This document shows positions 7,379-33,958 of a stretch of 33,972 bases of DNA, piece by piece (the first letter of the stretch is position 1; the number at the start of each line of letters is the position of its first letter). Origin of the DNA: an uncultured Lachnospiraceae bacterium (GTDB lineage: Bacteria; Bacillota_A; Clostridia; Lachnospirales; Lachnospiraceae); the NCBI GenBank assembly GCA_902801585.1, contig CADCIU010000030.1, positions 1-33,972 of the forward strand, written 5' to 3'. The position numbers and the translations under genes were made by a program. The notes under the pieces were generated by a model. That model did no database searches. It had not been told where the DNA came from and was given only the letters and a program-made list of their open reading frames with translations.

Positions 7379-9394
7379 ATGAAAAAACAGATTGGAAGGA
7401 AAGTACTGTCACTTATGCTTGGATTGACTTTGACATTATCCTTAGCCGGATGCGCTGCGAACTCTTCCGGAACCGGAGCGGATCAGGCGAGCGAAAGCGA
7501 CACGGCCCAGGCTGCTTCAGGTGGCGCGCAGGCGGACGACGCCCGGGACGCGGCAAGTGAAGCACAGGCAGGCGATACAGAGAAAGACGACGCGGAGATC
7601 CGCAATCTGATCTCCGAAATGACGGTGGAAGAAAAATTGACGCAGATGATGATCGTCGCCTTGAGGTCCGACGGGGCCAACACAGATACGGCGACCGGGA
7701 TCGATGAGGATTACGCTGACCTGCTGCAGAAGCACGATTTTGGCGGGATCATTCTGTTTGCCGGCAATATTACAGACCCGGCACAAACGGTGACACTCAT
7801 CCGTGACTGCCAGGATGCGGCTATAAGTTCCGCGCACGGCATTCCCATGTTCATCTGCGTCGACCAGGAAGGCGGCGCGGTAAACCGTGTCGGTTTCGGG
7901 ACGACGGGCTCCGGAAATATGGCTCTTGCGGCCACGGGAGACCCTGCCCTTGCTCAGGAGAGTGCCCGGATGATGGGGGATGAGATTTACGCACTCGGTT
8001 TCAACATGGATTTTGCACCGGTGTCAGATGTCAACAGCAATCCGGCCAACCCGGTCATAGGTGTGCGCTCCTTCTCCGACGACCCGCAGATCGCGGCTGA
8101 CTATGTCACATCCTTTATCAAAGGACTTGATGCCTCCAATATATCGGCGGCTCTCAAGCATTTTCCGGGCCACGGCAATGTGGGAGAGGACAGCCACACA
8201 CATCTGCCCTGTTCGGATTTTGACCTCGAGGAGATCAAAAACTGTGATCTCATTCCCTTCCAGGCGGGTATTGACGCGGGCGCGGACATGATCATGACAG
8301 CCCACATACAATTCCCCAAGATCGAGAAGGAGACGTATGTTTCTATCGAGGACGGCGAGGAAGTTAACCTCCCGGCGACGCTGTCCCGCACGATCATCAC
8401 CGGCCTTCTGCGTGAACAGATGGGCTATGACGGGATCGTGATCACGGATTCTATGGAGATGGATGCAATCGCAGCGCACTTCGACCCGATCGATGCGGCG
8501 GTCTTGGCGATCAATGCCGGCGACGATATTTTGCTGTGCCCGGCGGACTTGTATAAGAGTCAGGACACAAATACTTTTGAGTCTTTTGAAACCTATCTGG
8601 CCGCACTGGCGGCGAGAGTGGAAGCGGGAGATATCAAAGAAGAAGAGTTGGACGATTCGGTCTACAGGATTTTGAGCCTCAAGAAGAAAAAGGGACTTGT
8701 GAAAGATGCCGCTCAGGTTTCCGTGCAAGAGCAGATCGCGCAGGCTGAGGCCTCGGTCGGCACGGCGGCCAATCACGCGAGAGAGTGGGAGATCGCGCAG
8801 GCCGGCATGACGCTCCTCAAGAACGAGAGCCATGCGCTCCCGCTGGATGGAAGTGCGTCCGCGCTCATCCTGTACCCGAGTGAGAGAAGACAGGCTTCCG
8901 TTGAATACGCGGTCGACCGGCTAGGCGAAAAGGGCCTTCTGGATCCTTCCAAAGTGACATCGATCTGCTATGCGGACCTCGCCGCGGATGACGCGGAGCT
9001 TGCGGGGGCATTGGAGCAGAGCGAGAAACTCATCGTTCTCTCGCAGTCGACCGACAGAAACGAAGCAGCTGCTGAGGCGATCGAGCAGTTCCATGAAGAC
9101 GGCAAACAGGTGGTGCTCCTATGCCTGAACCTGCCCTACGATGCGGCCTGCTATGAGGAGGCGGACGCGGTGCTCTGCGCGTACCAGCCTTACGGCAGTG
9201 CGCATGACGAAGAAGGAAATGGTCCTTTTAACCTGAATGTGGCGGTCGCGATCTGTACCGCTTACAACGAGTCGGTGCCTTCCGGGAAGCTGCCCGTCAA
9301 TGTTCCGAGGGTCACGGTGAGTGACGGAGAGGTCTCGTTTGAAGATGAGCTGCTCTACGAGAGGGGATTCGGGCTGGAGCTCTGGGGAGACTGA
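7379..9394 (+). CDS. nagZ: Lipoprotein beta-N-acetylhexosaminidase, GH3 family (NagZ-type)
   Basis: 671-residue secreted lipoprotein. A signal peptide ends in a lipobox LAGC with acyl-accepting C25, followed by a Ser/Ala/Asp-rich linker to about residue 70. The GH3 TIM barrel carries the NagZ-specific loop KHFPGHGNVGEDSHTH (260-275), whose Asp-His pair acts as acid/base, and the nucleophile D357 in GIVITDSMEMDAI. A C-terminal GH3 alpha/beta domain (from about residue 480, AGMTLLKNESHALPL) follows, as in Bacillus NagZ. It should cleave GlcNAc-beta-1,4-MurNAc fragments outside the membrane for cell-wall recycling. The start at 7379 is chosen because AGGAGC lies eight bases upstream and the signal peptide begins there; a GTG at 7358 is less likely. 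A REP-like element follows. Confidence 0.92.
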   Translation: MKKQIGRKVLSLMLGLTLTLSLAGCAANSSGTGADQASESDTAQAASGGAQADDARDAASEAQAGDTEKDDAEIRNLISEMTVEEKLTQMMIVALRSDGANTDTATGIDEDYADLLQKHDFGGIILFAGNITDPAQTVTLIRDCQDAAISSAHGIPMFICVDQEGGAVNRVGFGTTGSGNMALAATGDPALAQESARMMGDEIYALGFNMDFAPVSDVNSNPANPVIGVRSFSDDPQIAADYVTSFIKGLDASNISAALKHFPGHGNVGEDSHTHLPCSDFDLEEIKNCDLIPFQAGIDAGADMIMTAHIQFPKIEKETYVSIEDGEEVNLPATLSRTIITGLLREQMGYDGIVITDSMEMDAIAAHFDPIDAAVLAINAGDDILLCPADLYKSQDTNTFESFETYLAALAARVEAGDIKEEELDDSVYRILSLKKKKGLVKDAAQVSVQEQIAQAEASVGTAANHAREWEIAQAGMTLLKNESHALPLDGSASALILYPSERRQASVEYAVDRLGEKGLLDPSKVTSICYADLAADDAELAGALEQSEKLIVLSQSTDRNEAAAEAIEQFHEDGKQVVLLCLNLPYDAACYEEADAVLCAYQPYGSAHDEEGNGPFNLNVAVAICTAYNESVPSGKLPVNVPRVTVSDGEVSFEDELLYERGFGLELWGD

Positions 9395-9402
9395 TGCTGA
9401 GG

Positions 9403-9502
9403 GTGTCAAGGGGACGGTTCTTTTGACAACTTTAGTGCCGGGGAGACAGGGGACGGTTCTTCTGATACTGAAAAGTTGTCAGAAGAACCGTCCCCTTGAC
9501 AC
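9403..9502. repeat. REP-like palindromic element with internal arm copy
   Basis: 31-nt terminal arms (9403-9433 and 9472-9502) starting GTGTCAAGGGGACGGTTCTT pair with one mismatch. Between them is another directly oriented arm copy (9449-9465). The arms match the element at 1-56. It lies exactly between the convergent nagZ and ACT genes and could serve as a two-way transcription barrier, though it has no U-tract. Confidence 0.88.
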
Positions 9503-9506
9503 TAAC

Positions 9507-9938
9507 TTAAAGGATCTCTTCTATATCCGCATCGGAAAGCGTCTTGATTCCGTTTCCTCTCAGGACTGTCTCAGCCTCATCTATATCGTCCACTCGGAGG
9601 ACCACGTAAGCGGATCCCGCGACAGCAGCAGTAAAAGCATAGATATATTCAATATTGACGCCGGTCTCCTGTATGATCTTGAGGATCTCCTTGAGGGCGC
9701 CTGCCTTGTCGCTCATCTTGACTGCGATGACTCTGGTCTCCTTGACAACAGTGTCATCAGAGAGGACCTCTTTGGTCTTACCGATATCGGAGACGATGAC
9801 GCGGAGAATGCCGAAGTCCTTGGTATCCGCGACGGAGAGCGCGCGGAGATTGACGCCGGCGTCAGAGATCGCGCTTACAGCTTTGTATAGAGTTCCGGGT
9901 GTGTTTTCAAGAAATGCGGACAACTGTGTGATAGCCAT
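9507..9938 (-). CDS. Tandem ACT-domain amino-acid-binding protein
   Basis: 143 residues made of two ACT domains (about 1-68 and 70-143), the first starting TQLSAFLENTPGTLYKAVSAI and the second VIAVKMSDKAGALKEILKII. ACT pairs bind amino acids and regulate enzymes or transcription; no catalytic domain is attached. AAGGAGG stands eight bases before the ATG. The gene follows the phenylacetate-CoA ligase by 26 bases on the same strand and should be under the same Phe attenuator. Such ACT proteins are commonly paired with arylacetate-CoA ligases in anaerobes, so an aromatic amino acid is the likely ligand; that is an inference. Confidence 0.9.
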   Translation of the reverse strand: MAITQLSAFLENTPGTLYKAVSAISDAGVNLRALSVADTKDFGILRVIVSDIGKTKEVLSDDTVVKETRVIAVKMSDKAGALKEILKIIQETGVNIEYIYAFTAAVAGSAYVVLRVDDIDEAETVLRGNGIKTLSDADIEEIL

Positions 9939-9964: not shown

Positions 9965-11272
9965 TTAGTCATGCAGTTTGCGCTTGTCGATGACGCGTAC
10001 AGCTTTGCCCTCAGATCTTGTGATGGACTTGGGCGCCACCAGGTGGATCTTGGGGCCGATCCCCAGCATGGAACGCATTGCGCCGTTCAACGACTTTTCG
10101 AGCGCCTGGACGTCCGCGATCTTGTCGGAGAACTGCTCGGGAGAGAACTCGACATAGATGTCGAAGGTATCCGTGTTGTTGGCGCGGTCCACGACGATCT
10201 GGTAGTTGGGAGTGTAGCCTTCCTTGAGCAGCACAGCCTCGATCTGGCTCGGGAATACGTTGACGCCGCGGATGATCATCATGTCGTCGCTTCTGCCCAG
10301 AGGCTTGGTCATCTTGACATGGGTGCGTCCGCAGGAGCATTTCTTTCTGGACAAAATACAGATGTCCTTGGTGCGGTAGCGCAGGAGCGGGAAGCCTTCT
10401 TTGTCCAAAGAAGTGAAGACAAGCTCACCCTTGGCGCCTTCGGGCAGCACTTCGCCGGTCTTGGGGTCGATCACTTCCGCGTAGAAGTGGTCCTCGTTGA
10501 TATGCATGCCGGTCTGCTCTTCGCACTCGAAGGCAACGCCGGGGCCGGAAGTCTCTGTGAGGCCGTAGATGTCATAAGCTTTGATTCCCAGGCTCTTCTC
10601 AATACTATGACGCATTTCCTCGGTCCAGGGCTCCGCGCCGAAAATGCCGGCTTTGAGCTTATTGTCTTCCGGCTTGTAACCGCGCTCTGCGAGGGACTCG
10701 CCGAGATAAGCCGCATAAGAAGGCGTGCAGCAGAGGATGGTCGCGTTCAGGTCCATCATGAACTGGAGCTGGCGGTCAGTGTTGCCGGAGGACATGGGAA
10801 GGGTCAGGCAGCCGACTTTGTGGGAGCCGCCGTTGAGGCCGGGGCCGCCGGTGAACAGACCGTAGCCGTAAGCGACCTGCACGACATCTTCATCGGTGCC
10901 GCCCGCAGCGACGATCGCTCTTGCGCAGCACTCTTCCCACATATCGACATCTTTCTGTGTGTAGAAAGCGACAACGCGCTTTCCGGTAGTACCGGATGTG
11001 GACTGGATGCGGACACAGTTCTTCAGGTCGGTGCCCAGAAGGCCGTAGGGATATGCTTCGCGAAGGTCATCTTTGGTAAGGAAAGGAAGCTTGCGGATGT
11101 CGTCGGTGCTCCGGATGTCTTCGGGTTTCACGCCTTTCTGGTCCATGAGATGGCGGTAGTAGGGAACATTGTCATAGACATATCTGACCTGCTTTACAAG
11201 CTTCTCATTTTGGATCTTGAGGATCTCTTCGCGGGAAGCGGTTTCGATCTCTTTCTGGTAATAGTGTTTCAT
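9965..11272 (-). CDS. paaK: Phenylacetate-CoA ligase (arylacetate-CoA ligase family)
   Basis: 435-residue adenylate-forming enzyme that activates phenylacetate, or a related arylacetate, with ATP and CoA. The family start YYQKEIETASREEILKIQ is followed by VRYVYDNVPYYRHLMDQKGV, the nucleotide loop STSGTTGKRV (91-100), a YGLTETSGPG motif that contacts the adenylate, and a C-terminal domain with GRSDDMMIIRGVNVFPSQIE. ATG at 11272 follows AAGGAAAGGAG; extending to 11353 would add unrelated residues. The preceding leader (11393-11611) contains a Phe-rich peptide and terminator, so expression should rise when charged Phe-tRNA is scarce. That favours a role in making phenylalanine from phenylacetate over degradation. 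The indolepyruvate:ferredoxin oxidoreductase that would be needed is not in this window. The substrate could also be indole- or hydroxyphenylacetate. Confidence 0.9.
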   Translation of the reverse strand: MKHYYQKEIETASREEILKIQNEKLVKQVRYVYDNVPYYRHLMDQKGVKPEDIRSTDDIRKLPFLTKDDLREAYPYGLLGTDLKNCVRIQSTSGTTGKRVVAFYTQKDVDMWEECCARAIVAAGGTDEDVVQVAYGYGLFTGGPGLNGGSHKVGCLTLPMSSGNTDRQLQFMMDLNATILCCTPSYAAYLGESLAERGYKPEDNKLKAGIFGAEPWTEEMRHSIEKSLGIKAYDIYGLTETSGPGVAFECEEQTGMHINEDHFYAEVIDPKTGEVLPEGAKGELVFTSLDKEGFPLLRYRTKDICILSRKKCSCGRTHVKMTKPLGRSDDMMIIRGVNVFPSQIEAVLLKEGYTPNYQIVVDRANNTDTFDIYVEFSPEQFSDKIADVQALEKSLNGAMRSMLGIGPKIHLVAPKSITRSEGKAVRVIDKRKLHD

Positions 11273-11392
11273 AATAGCTCCTTTCCTTGTTAAGAGGTTG
11301 TTGCCGCGGCGTTTGCCGCATGTGCCCGGCCGGAAAACCATACTTGAATGCATCCTCGTGCAAGCACGAGATGCGCCCCCAGCCTATCGCAC

Positions 11393-11426
11393 AAAAAAAG
11401 GCGCGGCACTTGTTGAAGTGCCACGC
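11393..11426 (-). terminator. Attenuator terminator in the paaK leader
   Basis: On the minus strand GCGTGGCACTT (11426-11416), loop CAAC and AAGTGCCGCGC (11411-11401) form an 11-bp stem with one G-U pair, followed by seven T (11399-11393). It stands 120 bases before the ligase start and 41 bases after the leader-peptide stop codon. Its 5' arm plus loop can instead pair with the leader segment at 11484-11470. Confidence 0.88.
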
Positions 11427-11466
11427 TCATGTTGAACGGATCTGAAGATCCCTGCTCCCACATTCT

Positions 11467-11559
11467 TTAGCATAGCAAATCAACCTTACTGCGTGTATCA
11501 GTAAAGCTAAAGCTAAAGAAGTTAAAGAAGAAGTTTGTGGTGCAGAGTGTGCGATTCAT
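11467..11559 (-). CDS. Phe-rich attenuation leader peptide
   Basis: 30-codon ORF with ATG at 11559 and TAA at 11469-11467. AAGGAG at 11572-11567 lies seven bases upstream. Residues 9-19 read NFFFNFFSFSF: seven Phe codons within ten positions and no Tyr or Trp. The Phe-codon segment TTCTTTAGC (11520-11512) is perfectly complementary to GCTAAAGAA (11471-11463), which contains the stop codon; CTTTACTG (11506-11499) pairs with CAGTAAGG (11491-11484) inside it. GTTGATTTGCTATGC (11484-11470) can pair 13 of 15 with GCGTGGCACTTCAAC (11426-11412), the terminator's 5' arm and loop. This is the classical 1:2, 2:3, 3:4 layout of ribosome-mediated attenuation known from enterobacterial pheA and pheST. Confidence 0.85.
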   Translation of the reverse strand: MNRTLCTTNFFFNFFSFSFTDTRSKVDLLC

Positions 11560-11617
11560 CTCGAATCTCCTTGTCATCAGTGTCATGAATAAAAATTGCT
11601 GCTGTAATTTGAAATGA

Positions 11618-11647
11618 ATGATAGCACCGGGAAGATAAATGTGTCAA
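11618..11647 (-). promoter_or_regulatory. Promoter of the attenuated paaK operon
   Basis: On the minus strand TTGACA (11647-11642), an 18-nt spacer and TATCAT (11623-11618). Transcription would start near 11611, about 40 bases before the leader peptide's Shine-Dalgarno. The position matches a leader transcript that includes the whole attenuator. Confidence 0.78.
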
Positions 11648-11781: not shown

Positions 11782-13146
11782 ATGGAAGAGACATCGAAAA
11801 CGAATAAAGAAGACAAGCGCATATATATACTCAGTCGGGAGAAACCGGCGAAAGCGGTGGTGAAACTCGGTGTTCCGCTGATCGCCGGGATGTTCATTAT
11901 GGTCCTCTACAACCTGGTGGACACGTATTTCATCGGCCTTATGCGGGACGACTATCAGCTGGCGGCGGTCAACCTGGCGTACCCGGTCATGATGATCATG
12001 ATCGCGCTTTCCAACATGATCGGCACCGGGGCCTCCTCCCTGATCGCGAGAAGTCTGGGGGCGGGTGACAACGAGAAAGCCGATCACACGGTCACAGTCG
12101 GCTTTGTGCTGACGGTGATCAACAGTGCGGTCGTGGCGGCTCTGGGCCTTATTCTTTTGTCACCGATCGTGAAGGGGCTCGGCGCGCAGGAGAACACGTT
12201 CGGATACACAAGGCAGTATGTGCAGGTGATCCTGGCCGGGAGCCTCTTTACGATGGGAAACTATACGTTCGGTCAGCTTCTGAGGAGTGAGGGCTCGGTG
12301 AAGCAGTCCGTCGCAGGGATGATCGCCGGGACACTGGTGAATATTGTCCTCGATCCGATCTTCATCTTCGCTCTGGGGCTGGAGATCCGCGGCGCCGCGA
12401 TCGCGACGATCCTGGGCAATGCTGCCGGCATGTGCGTCTCCCTGTGGTTCTATATGAGCGGCAAAACACTGCTCAAACCCTCGTTTTCTTACATGCTTCC
12501 GACAGCGGAGATCCTGAGGGAGATCTTCTGGGTGGGCGTCCCCGCGACGCTGGAGACACTTCTGACCTCTGCCGCATATATCGTGAACAATAATCTCGCA
12601 GTCGGTTATGGTGAGCTGACCGTCGCTGCAATGGGGATCGCACAGAAGATCCTGTCCCTCGGAAACTATGTGTATCAGGGTTTTGCCGCAGGGACGCAGC
12701 CGATCATGGGATACAACTACGGCGCCCGCAGCTACAGGCGCATGATCGATGTGTTAAAAGCCGGCGTCATGGTCGTGAGCGCGACGGAGCTCTGCATCAT
12801 GGCCGTTTACGGGATCTTCGCGCCTTCGCTGATCGGAATTTTTACAGATTCGGCGGAAGTGATCGCGACGGGAAGCAGAGTGCTGCGGACCATCATGTGC
12901 ATCCTGCCCTTTGTCGGATCGACCTCTATGAGCAGAATGTCCTTCCAGGCCATGGGAAAGCCCCAGTACGCCTTCGGCATCACGCTTGTACGTCAGCTGA
13001 TCCTGTATGTGCCGCTGCTGCTGATCCTGAACAAACTGTTGGGATTTGGCGGCATGATCTGGGCGCAGCCCGTCAGCGAAGCCATCATGATGGCCGTGTC
13101 GGTGAGCCTCCTGTATCGGGTGATCCGGCTGGAGGAGACAAAGTGA
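11782..13146 (+). CDS. MATE-family multidrug efflux transporter
   Basis: 454-residue membrane protein with about twelve helices in two MatE halves. The N-terminal half has the family pattern GVPLIAGMFIMVLYNLVDTY and GTGASSLIARSLGAG; the second half has VNNNLAVGYG and YQGFAAGTQPIMGYNYGA, typical of MepA/NorM-like exporters that use Na+ or H+ gradients to expel cationic drugs and metabolites. ATG at 11782 follows AGGAG at a rather long spacing (12 bases). It converges with the dehydrogenase gene downstream; no terminator is obvious in the 73-base gap. Actual substrates are unknown. Confidence 0.9.
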   Translation: MEETSKTNKEDKRIYILSREKPAKAVVKLGVPLIAGMFIMVLYNLVDTYFIGLMRDDYQLAAVNLAYPVMMIMIALSNMIGTGASSLIARSLGAGDNEKADHTVTVGFVLTVINSAVVAALGLILLSPIVKGLGAQENTFGYTRQYVQVILAGSLFTMGNYTFGQLLRSEGSVKQSVAGMIAGTLVNIVLDPIFIFALGLEIRGAAIATILGNAAGMCVSLWFYMSGKTLLKPSFSYMLPTAEILREIFWVGVPATLETLLTSAAYIVNNNLAVGYGELTVAAMGIAQKILSLGNYVYQGFAAGTQPIMGYNYGARSYRRMIDVLKAGVMVVSATELCIMAVYGIFAPSLIGIFTDSAEVIATGSRVLRTIMCILPFVGSTSMSRMSFQAMGKPQYAFGITLVRQLILYVPLLLILNKLLGFGGMIWAQPVSEAIMMAVSVSLLYRVIRLEETK

Positions 13147-33187: not shown

Positions 33188-33259
33188 AGCTTCATAGTAT
33201 AACGGCGAGTACGCCGGACTGTCGCTCCGGAGGCGCGGGTTCGATTCCCGTTGAGGCTG
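33188..33259 (+). tRNA. tRNA-Asp (GTC)
   Basis: 72 nt. The acceptor stem AGCTTCA pairs with TGAGGCT (one G-U); the D arm is GTAT/GTAC with a GG-containing loop; the anticodon stem CCGGA/TCCGG holds loop CTGTCGC with GTC at 33221-33223; the T arm has TTCGATT. It starts with A1-T72, unusual for Asp, and has no encoded CCA. Confidence 0.8.
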
Positions 33260-33260
33260 C

Positions 33261-33333
33261 TGAGAATGTGGTGTAATGAGTAAGCACGCTGCGCTTGGGA
33301 CGCAGAGGCGCGGTTCGAATCCGACATTTTCAA
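33261..33333 (+). tRNA. tRNA-Pro (TGG), divergent
   Basis: Acceptor TGAGAAT/ATTTTCA (7 bp, one G-U) and anticodon stem CTGCG/CGCAG with loop CTTGGGA (TGG at 33296-33298) are good. The T stem has only three standard pairs around TTCGAAT and the D arm is poor and lacks the usual GG. It starts one base after tRNA-Asp. It may be a working non-canonical tRNA or a decaying one. Confidence 0.55.
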
Positions 33334-33363
33334 TCATCGTTAGAATATCGTCAGAAGAATATG

Positions 33364-33447
33364 TGACCCTCACAGCAATCAGTTAAATGGTAAAAATAAG
33401 CCTGTCACGCTTTAAATACGGTTCGAATCCGAAAATCAAAAGGGTCA
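33364..33447 (+). other. tRNA-like sequence, Asp-type anticodon loop, probably degenerate
   Basis: A D-loop-like AAATGGTAAAA, an anticodon loop CTGTCAC (GTC at 33404-33406) on a 4-bp stem and a T-loop TTCGAAT on CGG/CCG are present in the right order. The inner acceptor does not pair; an outer 7-bp helix TGACCCT/AGGGTCA encloses it with seven extra bases on each side. Not a normal tRNA. Confidence 0.4.
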
Positions 33448-33470
33448 TGGATCAGAAGGAGAAATGAGAG

Positions 33471-33635
33471 ATGATGAACACAATGATGACTATTATGAAC
33501 ACAAGCATTTTGATCTGCAAGAATAAAGAACACGAAGCGAAGCGATTCCGGGGAACCCGGAAACGTCTGTTAACTATACCCTTATCAGAAAAGCAGAGCA
33601 CCTTTGCAGCAGGGGGATCTTATATGGATGCATAA
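33471..33635 (+). CDS. 54-codon small ORF
   Basis: ATG at 33471 follows AAGGAG by nine bases. The product begins MMNTMMTIMNTSILICKNKE and then is basic (RFRGTRKRLL). It is followed by a small hairpin (GGATGCA/TGCATCC) and a terminator at 33668. No known domain. It might be a short peptide or part of a structured RNA. Confidence 0.4.
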   Translation: MMNTMMTIMNTSILICKNKEHEAKRFRGTRKRLLTIPLSEKQSTFAAGGSYMDA

Positions 33636-33667
33636 GTGCATCCGGATGTCCCGTACTGCAGACTCAG

Positions 33668-33704
33668 ACCGCTTTCCTGACCAAAGGGAAAGCGGTTTTC
33701 TTTA
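33668..33704 (+). terminator. Terminator between tRNA groups
   Basis: ACCGCTTTCC and GGAAAGCGGT form a 10-bp stem with a 9-nt loop, followed by TTTTCTTT. Confidence 0.85.
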
Positions 33705-33735
33705 TTTACAGAGCTGTTTATCAATAGATTTTTAT

Positions 33736-33808
33736 GGGTTACTCGTATAACGGTTATTATACCAGACTCTTAATCTGTGAGATCAGGGTTCGAATCCCTG
33801 GTGACCCA
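33736..33808 (+). tRNA. tRNA-Lys (CTT)
   Basis: Acceptor GGGTTAC/GTGACCC, T stem CAGGG/CCCTG with TTCGAAT, and anticodon loop CTCTTAA (CTT at 33769-33771). The anticodon stem is short (4 bp) and the junction to the D stem is a base tight. No encoded CCA. Confidence 0.78.
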
Positions 33809-33812
33809 TTAA

Positions 33813-33887
33813 CGCCCCATCGTACTAACGGAAGCAGGTTGCCACATTCTCAGTGTGGAGATACGGGTTCGAATCCCGTTGGGGTGT
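33813..33887 (+). tRNA. tRNA-Glu (CTC), weak D arm
   Basis: Acceptor CGCCCCA/TGGGGTG, anticodon stem CCACA/TGTGG with loop TTCTCAG (CTC at 33849-33851) and T stem ACGGG/CCCGT. The D stem is weak (best AAC/GTT). No encoded CCA. It follows tRNA-Lys after four bases. Confidence 0.68.
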
Positions 33888-33958
33888 GCGACGTGAAGTC
33901 GCTTAAGTTAACTGTTTGGCAGCAAAAGCCGACCAAACCAGCCATTCCGTTGGCTGAA

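Follow-up and report, generated by a model that had tools for sequence, protein, structure and literature searches.

The locus analysed here raises the question of why a gene for a phenylacetate-CoA ligase-like enzyme should stand behind a short open reading frame (ORF) crowded with phenylalanine codons, how such a leader could control the gene, and which metabolic end this control would serve. The window, i.e., the whole stretch of DNA under analysis, comprises 33,972 nt from an uncultured Lachnospiraceae bacterium (GCA_902801585.1, contig CADCIU010000030.1), in which the leader occupies the minus strand between a divergent MATE gene (11782-13146) and paaK. The reading advanced below, with a probability of about 0.9, is that the paaK leader is a ribosome-mediated transcription attenuator of the trp/phe type, a member of a family built on aromatic codons, with phenylalanine synthesis from phenylacetate as its probable use.

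Leader anatomy and alternative pairings

On the minus strand, a sigma-A/70-type promoter, TTGACA-18-TATCAT (11618..11647; TTGACA begins at 11647 and TATCAT ends at 11618), scored 11/12 in a consensus scan, and comparable promoters were read by eye upstream of the leaders of relatives. A Shine-Dalgarno sequence, AAGGAG (11567..11572), is followed by an ORF (11467..11559) that starts with ATG and runs for 30 codons plus a stop, with MNRTLCTTNFFFNFFSFSFTDTRSKVDLLC as its putative translation, conserved in relatives. Its seven Phe codons, at residues 10, 11, 12, 14, 15, 17, and 19, form the regulatory run (11503..11532), and the leader closes with an intrinsic terminator (11393..11426) consisting of an 11-bp stem of -18.2 kcal/mol and seven T. 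The promoter, ribosome site, 30-codon ORF with seven Phe, stop codon, and 11-bp terminator before paaK had been described in a first-pass annotation of this DNA, and all of them were recovered. The paaK gene itself (9965..11272, minus strand, 435 aa) carries a Shine-Dalgarno sequence AAGGAG at 11278..11283 and most likely starts at 11272, which leaves approximately 120 nt between terminator and gene.

Three mutually exclusive pairings, drawn in the same annotation, proved exact: a Phe-codon helix of 11520-11512 with 11471-11463 (9/9 bp), an antiterminator of 11484-11470 with 11426-11412 (13/15), and the terminator stem of 11426-11416 with 11411-11401 (11/11). Segment 2, GTTGATTTGCTATGC (11470..11484), forms the 5' arm of the antiterminator, and segment 3, GCGTGGCACTTCAAC (11412..11426), serves both as its 3' arm and as the 5' arm and loop of the terminator; both assignments rest on pairing and covariation. 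The Phe-codon helix exists as proposed but is only partly conserved (in five leaders, 32/37 gap-free cells). The 1:2 hairpin with the best conservation is instead a 12-bp stem (11480..11510), identified by folding and five-leader comparison, in which 11510-11499 pairs with 11491-11480; 100% of its cells are paired in the five leaders, and one pair has both partners changed. The minimum-energy fold stacks the Phe-codon helix on this hairpin.

Folding of 11611-11390, which the annotation had put forward as a check, gave -65.1 kcal/mol (z -4.45), and 0/200 shuffles were as good. Its companion proposal, masking of the Phe segment, was modelled on a transcript ending at the terminator loop, in which a ribosome blocked 15 nt from the A-site codon during folding and kinetics were ignored. 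The predicted antiterminator probability in the window is 0.00 without a ribosome and 0.82-1.0 with a ribosome at any Phe codon (0.82-0.87 at Phe 10-12; 1.0 at Phe 14-19); the near-zero value for a ribosome at the stop codon is set by the masking itself, by construction. In this model, the position of the ribosome would free or hide segment 2, and the switch is equally clean in three related leaders (L001, L003, and L004). It is softer in L002, where the antiterminator is half formed without a ribosome (0.52), and in L014, where a quarter is; in L108, it reaches only about 0.5 when the ribosome is stalled, and L012, L028, and L107 antiterminate without any ribosome (0.85-1.0), against the model.

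From these elements we infer ribosome stalling, read-through, and their physiological effect as follows. When Phe-tRNA is plentiful, the leading ribosome would reach the stop codon and cover segment 2 (11484-11470), the 3:4 terminator would form, and transcription would stop before paaK. Under a shortage of charged Phe-tRNA, the ribosome would stall on the Phe codons, covering segment 1; segments 2 and 3 could then pair, and RNA polymerase would enter paaK-ACT. In the absence of translation, the 1:2 hairpin would retain segment 2, and transcription would also end.

Conservation and the wider leader family

The paaK loci used for comparison were the best 80 of 595 relatives from a genome scan, the nearest belonging to metagenome-assembled genomes labelled Lachnospiraceae, Ruminococcus, or Eubacteriales. 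Among these best 80 of 595, a Phe leader with a Shine-Dalgarno sequence lies within the first 700 nt upstream (or in the shorter stretch available) in 4/80; the carriers, L001-L004, are the four closest of the 80 listed loci, with PaaK 88-95% identical. The annotation had named loss of the Phe run and stems in relatives as evidence that would speak against it; in the comparison, the Phe runs, antiterminator, and terminator are conserved, with compensatory changes. The 700-nt scan missed leaders lying before the first gene of an operon; it was widened with covariance models and with a scan that took operons into account. Covariance model R2 placed the motif in 7/80 loci (L001-L004, L012, L028, and L014; best 80 of 595), and in the sequence examined the other 73/80 had no R2 match with E under 1. 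In L012 and L028, a Tyr/Phe leader precedes a symporter-like gene and then paaK; in L014, a Trp/Tyr/Phe leader precedes trpB2 and then paaK. On a PaaK tree of 81 rows, one change suffices for the five genes with a direct leader; in L010, their sister, a leader was looked for and none was found.

Two further arrangements were seen among these loci. A different, unrelated-looking Phe/Tyr leader, MRSIVKGFGFYGYFYRKVDACSSPS, with a terminator (L034, 251-387) stands before an AMP-ligase-iorA-iorB-paaK-ACT operon, and in L012 (7911-8523, genome G012), a purE-like gene and further purine-like genes follow paaK-ACT, with a ZMP-ZTP riboswitch between them at 7911-7991.

Association of leader and enzyme was followed in 61 genomes of the genus of the nearest relative, G001. 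Covariance model R3 found the motif in 23/61 (E up to 0.001), and PaaK at least 88% identical was found in 23/61 (E up to 1e-100), 20 of them whole and three (G641, G643, and G682) contig-edge fragments. The motif-bearing and close-PaaK genomes are an identical set of 23, and the motif occurs in 0/38 of the others (E up to 0.001); in G661, the leader stands before trpB2, with paaK farther down the same strand. A second PaaK (67-70%) is listed in 18 of the 23 and a third (44-45%) in 10. The third adjoins iorAB in G001 and G002, the two inspected, where the iorAB-linked enzyme is a 44-46% paralogue distinct from the leader-controlled PaaK. Genomes lacking the close copy contributed ten further PaaK loci (69-75%); inspection of these for an aromatic leader was negative, and four have iorB upstream.

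The wider searches used overlapping genome sets: 14 genomes for R1, sets of 35 and 299 for R2, and sets of 300, 61, and 391 for R3. At E up to 0.001, matches occur in 7/299 genomes with R2 and in 32/300, 23/61, and 4/391 with R3; the last figure, which includes the centre G014 and one match judged chance, marks the motif as rare class-wide. Of the 35, 12 genomes match R2 with E no higher than 0.05, and two of these matches were put down to chance. The R2 and R3 searches scored 14-123 and 11-70 first-look candidates per genome, respectively, and are so shallow that absence of the motif from a genome is weak evidence. Inspection of L141 (E 0.012), L142 (E 0.036), L234 (5.5e-4), L114, and L116 revealed no leader, and these were judged chance; remaining R1 matches with E above 0.02 were covered by a general scan, which confirmed L115, and 6 of the 36 matches of the R3 search over 300 genomes, having no locus, were left out of inspection.

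Near the leader end, nearly all members have GTAAGG..ATTTG..TGC in common, which pairs with the terminator 5' arm and loop. The antiterminator was tested on MAFFT alignments, made without structure, of 5, 10, 18, and 49 sequences, in which 95.7%, 93.5%, 89.5%, and 90.6% of cells are paired, respectively, against 23-50% in slid controls over all sets (34-50% in the 49 set). The percentage for the 49 set leans to the helix, because its sequences were found with a model that holds it; 48/49 were outside the training, and the set omits earlier R3 members except the window, the duplicate L186, L199, and L201. The five leaders alone are insufficient, as 48/500 shuffles do as well. In the sets of 10, 18, and 49, cells paired and covariation score exceed 500/500 shuffles, and 4, 6, and 6 pairs, respectively, are changed on both sides, a count reached by 64/500 shuffles in the 10 set and by 13/500 in the 18 set. 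In the 49 set, these 6 pairs comprise 76 cells changed on both sides, and 0/500 shuffles reach any of five measures. Antiterminator and terminator are mutually exclusive structures with covariation.

Codon identity was then set against the downstream gene in 66 leaders drawn from 68 matches; L161, L167, L183, and L199 were dropped because the downstream gene was not reached or not seen, the window and L115 were added, and the peptides of L156, L158, L159, and L189 were trimmed manually to an internal ATG. Genes were labelled by blastp against reference proteins, those of L155, L160, L165, L175, L176, L178, L196, and L201 being assigned from sequence; among representatives, TrpB-like TIGR01415, DAHP synthase, AroB, and IOR alpha and beta pass the NCBIfam cut-offs, and the symporter-like proteins and a truncated PheS fall below them. 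Leaders before paaK (n = 24) hold on average 6.4 Phe, 0.5 Tyr, and near 0 Trp; those before aroF (n = 21, tyrA next in 19) hold 3.6 Tyr and 3.5 Phe, with at least two Tyr in 20/21; and those before trpB2 (n = 10) hold 2.1 Trp, which is present in 10/10 of them versus 1/24 paaK and 1/21 aroF leaders. The other targets are symporter-like genes (6), aroB (3), and pheA (2). None of 5000 gene-label permutations over the 66 leaders reaches the observed Trp, Tyr, or Phe differences, the kinship of the genomes being uncorrected. Later members are consistent, with Phe before paaK in L232 and Tyr/Phe before aroF-tyrA in L233; an instructive exception is L140 (G015), in which a paaK-type leader (Phe only, tail VNLLC) precedes aroF. 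As far as sequence can tell, this is a family in Clostridia with a shared terminator/antiterminator core, in which the choice among Phe, Tyr/Phe, and Trp codons matches the controlled gene; the codon run is conserved and corresponds to the amino acid that the pathway yields.

Chance could place a Phe-rich small ORF near an unrelated terminator, given that Phe codons arise in T-rich DNA. A mechanical scan for a Shine-Dalgarno sequence, a Phe-rich ORF, and a terminator over both strands of the window and L001-L080 (920,508 bases) returned six cases with at least five Phe per 12 residues, every one preceding a paaK operon, and 12 first-order Markov randomisations returned one case summed over all; the randomisations, the co-occurrence in the genus sample, and the covariation oppose coincidence, which the comparison already refutes and whose probability is negligible. 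Nascent-peptide arrest or a small functional peptide, conserved for its amino acids and not as a codon-reading attenuator, would account for the tail S(K/R)V(D/N/S)LLC that recurs in many paaK leaders. This conserved tail is explained by RNA constraint, because the antiterminator arm encodes it; L107, L144, and L146 have an earlier stop with the nucleotide pairing kept, and the aromatic content switches with the target, which makes a peptide function very unlikely.

The leader might also bind a ligand or tRNA, the RNA being a T-box or an unknown riboswitch and its ORF accidental, and T-box matches (E up to 0.001) do exist in all four nearest genomes, above the gathering score only in G003, where one precedes a pheS-like gene. 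The leaders searched, however, gave no T-box or other Rfam match: no leader family of Rfam 15 reached its gathering score, the sole match at E up to 10 was an sRNA family at 16.4 bits, and T-box model RF00230, which does match in related genomes, gave no match upstream of paaK. The leader ORFs of the family were chosen by aromatic content, and with the same picking at random positions as control, at least 4 aromatic residues per 12 occur in 68/68 examined matches versus 60/680 random positions, and at least 5 in 66/68 versus 22/680. A ligand- or tRNA-binding leader of this sort is extremely improbable. The attenuator interpretation of the first-pass annotation is favoured by the Phe runs, stems, and covariation in the comparison and by the masking fold, and membership of the paaK leader in this mechanism class appears well supported.

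The T-box matches, at L085 (1501-1727), L086, L088, and L092, lie before pheS in G003 (above the gathering score) and, below that score, before trpE-like (G001), trpD-like (G002), and trpB2 (G004) genes, the first two of these three being named by eye. At trpB2, which has a T-box in G004 and a Trp leader elsewhere, two tRNA-charging systems seem to have been exchanged at one gene.

Probable role of the paaK-ACT unit

The window PaaK has its best solved matches in 2y4o, 2y27, and 4r1l, named phenylacetate-CoA ligase, and is an AMP-forming phenylacetate-CoA ligase-like enzyme. Against TIGR02155, it scores 512.9 bits, under the equivalog cut-off of 646.3; because this cut-off is not reached, phenylacetate as its substrate is deduced from the leader and the kin. 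The following gene of the unit (9507..9938, minus strand) encodes a protein with a pair of ACT domains (PF19571, profile match), and in relatives paaK has an ACT gene downstream in 72/80 (contig ends disregarded) and iorB immediately upstream in 30/80, with iorA-iorB-paaK adjacent in 27/80, all among the best 80 of 595; in L032, pheA comes after paaK-ACT. Adjoining iorAB were not found at paaK within the window. In the four nearest genomes, IOR alpha is above the cut-off in one and split or contig-cut in two, with none convincing in G004 (best 67.6 bits); prephenate dehydratase is present in 3/4 and was not found in G003, which may simply be incomplete.

Elsewhere in the window, nearly identical inverted repeats, GGGGACGGTTCTTCTGACAACTTTT..., occur at 1-63 and 9403-9502, one abutting the 3' end of the ACT gene, apparently as a small dispersed repeat; a free-standing type II chorismate mutase (PF01817, 27371-27652) adjoins a DJ-1/PfpI gene; and four tRNA genes (Asp, Pro, Lys, and Glu) lie at 33188-33889.

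Phenylacetate is a common gut metabolite. PaaK would convert it to phenylacetyl-CoA, an IOR-type enzyme would carboxylate this to phenylpyruvate, and transamination would yield Phe. PaaK probably serves this synthesis, because it resembles AMP-forming ligases and its relatives often stand beside iorAB; a switch opened by Phe shortage fits the same direction. Alternatively, the Phe attenuation could be real and paaK-ACT could serve phenylacetate breakdown, detoxification, or a side route: PaaK is elsewhere the entry enzyme of phenylacetate degradation, and the window paaK is without adjoining iorAB. In the passages of PMC13285125 on Bacteroides thetaiotaomicron, moreover, IOR participates in the conversion of Phe to phenylacetate. 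Induction by Phe shortage would, however, be senseless for a Phe-consuming route; AMP-forming ligases usually favour acyl-CoA formation, as stated in the same source; the same RNA family precedes pheA, aroF-tyrA, aroB, and trpB2, all biosynthetic; and the iorA-iorB-paaK adjacency noted above points the same way. A role outside Phe synthesis is thus unlikely, and Phe synthesis from phenylacetate remains the preferred reading.

It is likely that these leaders constitute a modular attenuator family of gut Clostridia, with one core in front of six or more kinds of gene (paaK, pheA, aroF-tyrA, aroB, trpB2, and sodium-solute-symporter-like) that is retuned by its aromatic codons, and that the Phe-only version marks PaaK as biosynthetic. 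If true, this would be regulatory evidence that the IOR/arylacetate-CoA ligase route makes an amino acid from scavenged phenylacetate, and leader codon content may be read as an indication of substrate, namely phenylacetate for the window PaaK. Whether the pairing of IOR with an AMP-forming arylacetate-CoA ligase in gut Bacteroides serves synthesis or degradation is weighed in a 2026 paper (PMC13285125); control of a related ligase by Phe starvation would favour synthesis and opens the matter to testing.

Comparison with known systems

Ribosome-mediated attenuation is already known in Bacillota. The ilv-leu leader Rli60 of Listeria monocytogenes (PMC5864092), experimentally supported there, is likewise of this kind and, by its description, has branched-chain codons and other genes. 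Predicted leader-peptide attenuators include the His attenuators of the Bacillus cereus group, Eubacteriales, and Erysipelotrichales (PMC9413887), likewise found by comparison, and the His and lysQ attenuators of Firmicutes (PMC4833913); these concern His codons with his genes, and lysQ, and the portions of both sources bearing on them present no aromatic leader. The proposed uORFC-13-1 of Acholeplasma (PMC8632094), compared by description, also combines a uORF, in which a U run codes for Phe, with a terminator before aroF, but is described for that genus only. A candidate attenuator of trpB2A in Corynebacterium diphtheriae (PMC1262725) similarly sets Trp codons before a trpB gene; the trp attenuators of this actinobacterium, as outlined there, use a conserved complementary triple, gGCC-rGCy-GGCC, and not the paaK-leader core. 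The formation of Phe from phenylacetate by rumen bacteria (Allison 1965, as cited in PMC7356843) represents the same physiology, the relevant passage naming neither gene nor regulation. In the open-licence literature searched, which leaves out most subscription papers, no earlier description was found of Phe or other aromatic leaders forming a family in Bacillota, of paaK under Phe control, or of a single core with exchanged aromatic specificity.

The closest counterparts are the enterobacterial pheA/pheST leaders (Rfam Phe_leader), which likewise have a Phe-run peptide, 1:2, 2:3, and 3:4 pairings, and a terminator before a Phe-related gene. The paaK leader differs in its Bacillota host, its phenylacetate-CoA ligase-like target, the lack of an Rfam match, and a core common to Trp and Tyr leaders. 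The usual picture of Bacillota, given also in the first-pass annotation, is one of T-box control of amino acid genes; here, leader-peptide attenuation of the enteric type appears as a multi-target family, in genomes that also give T-box matches.
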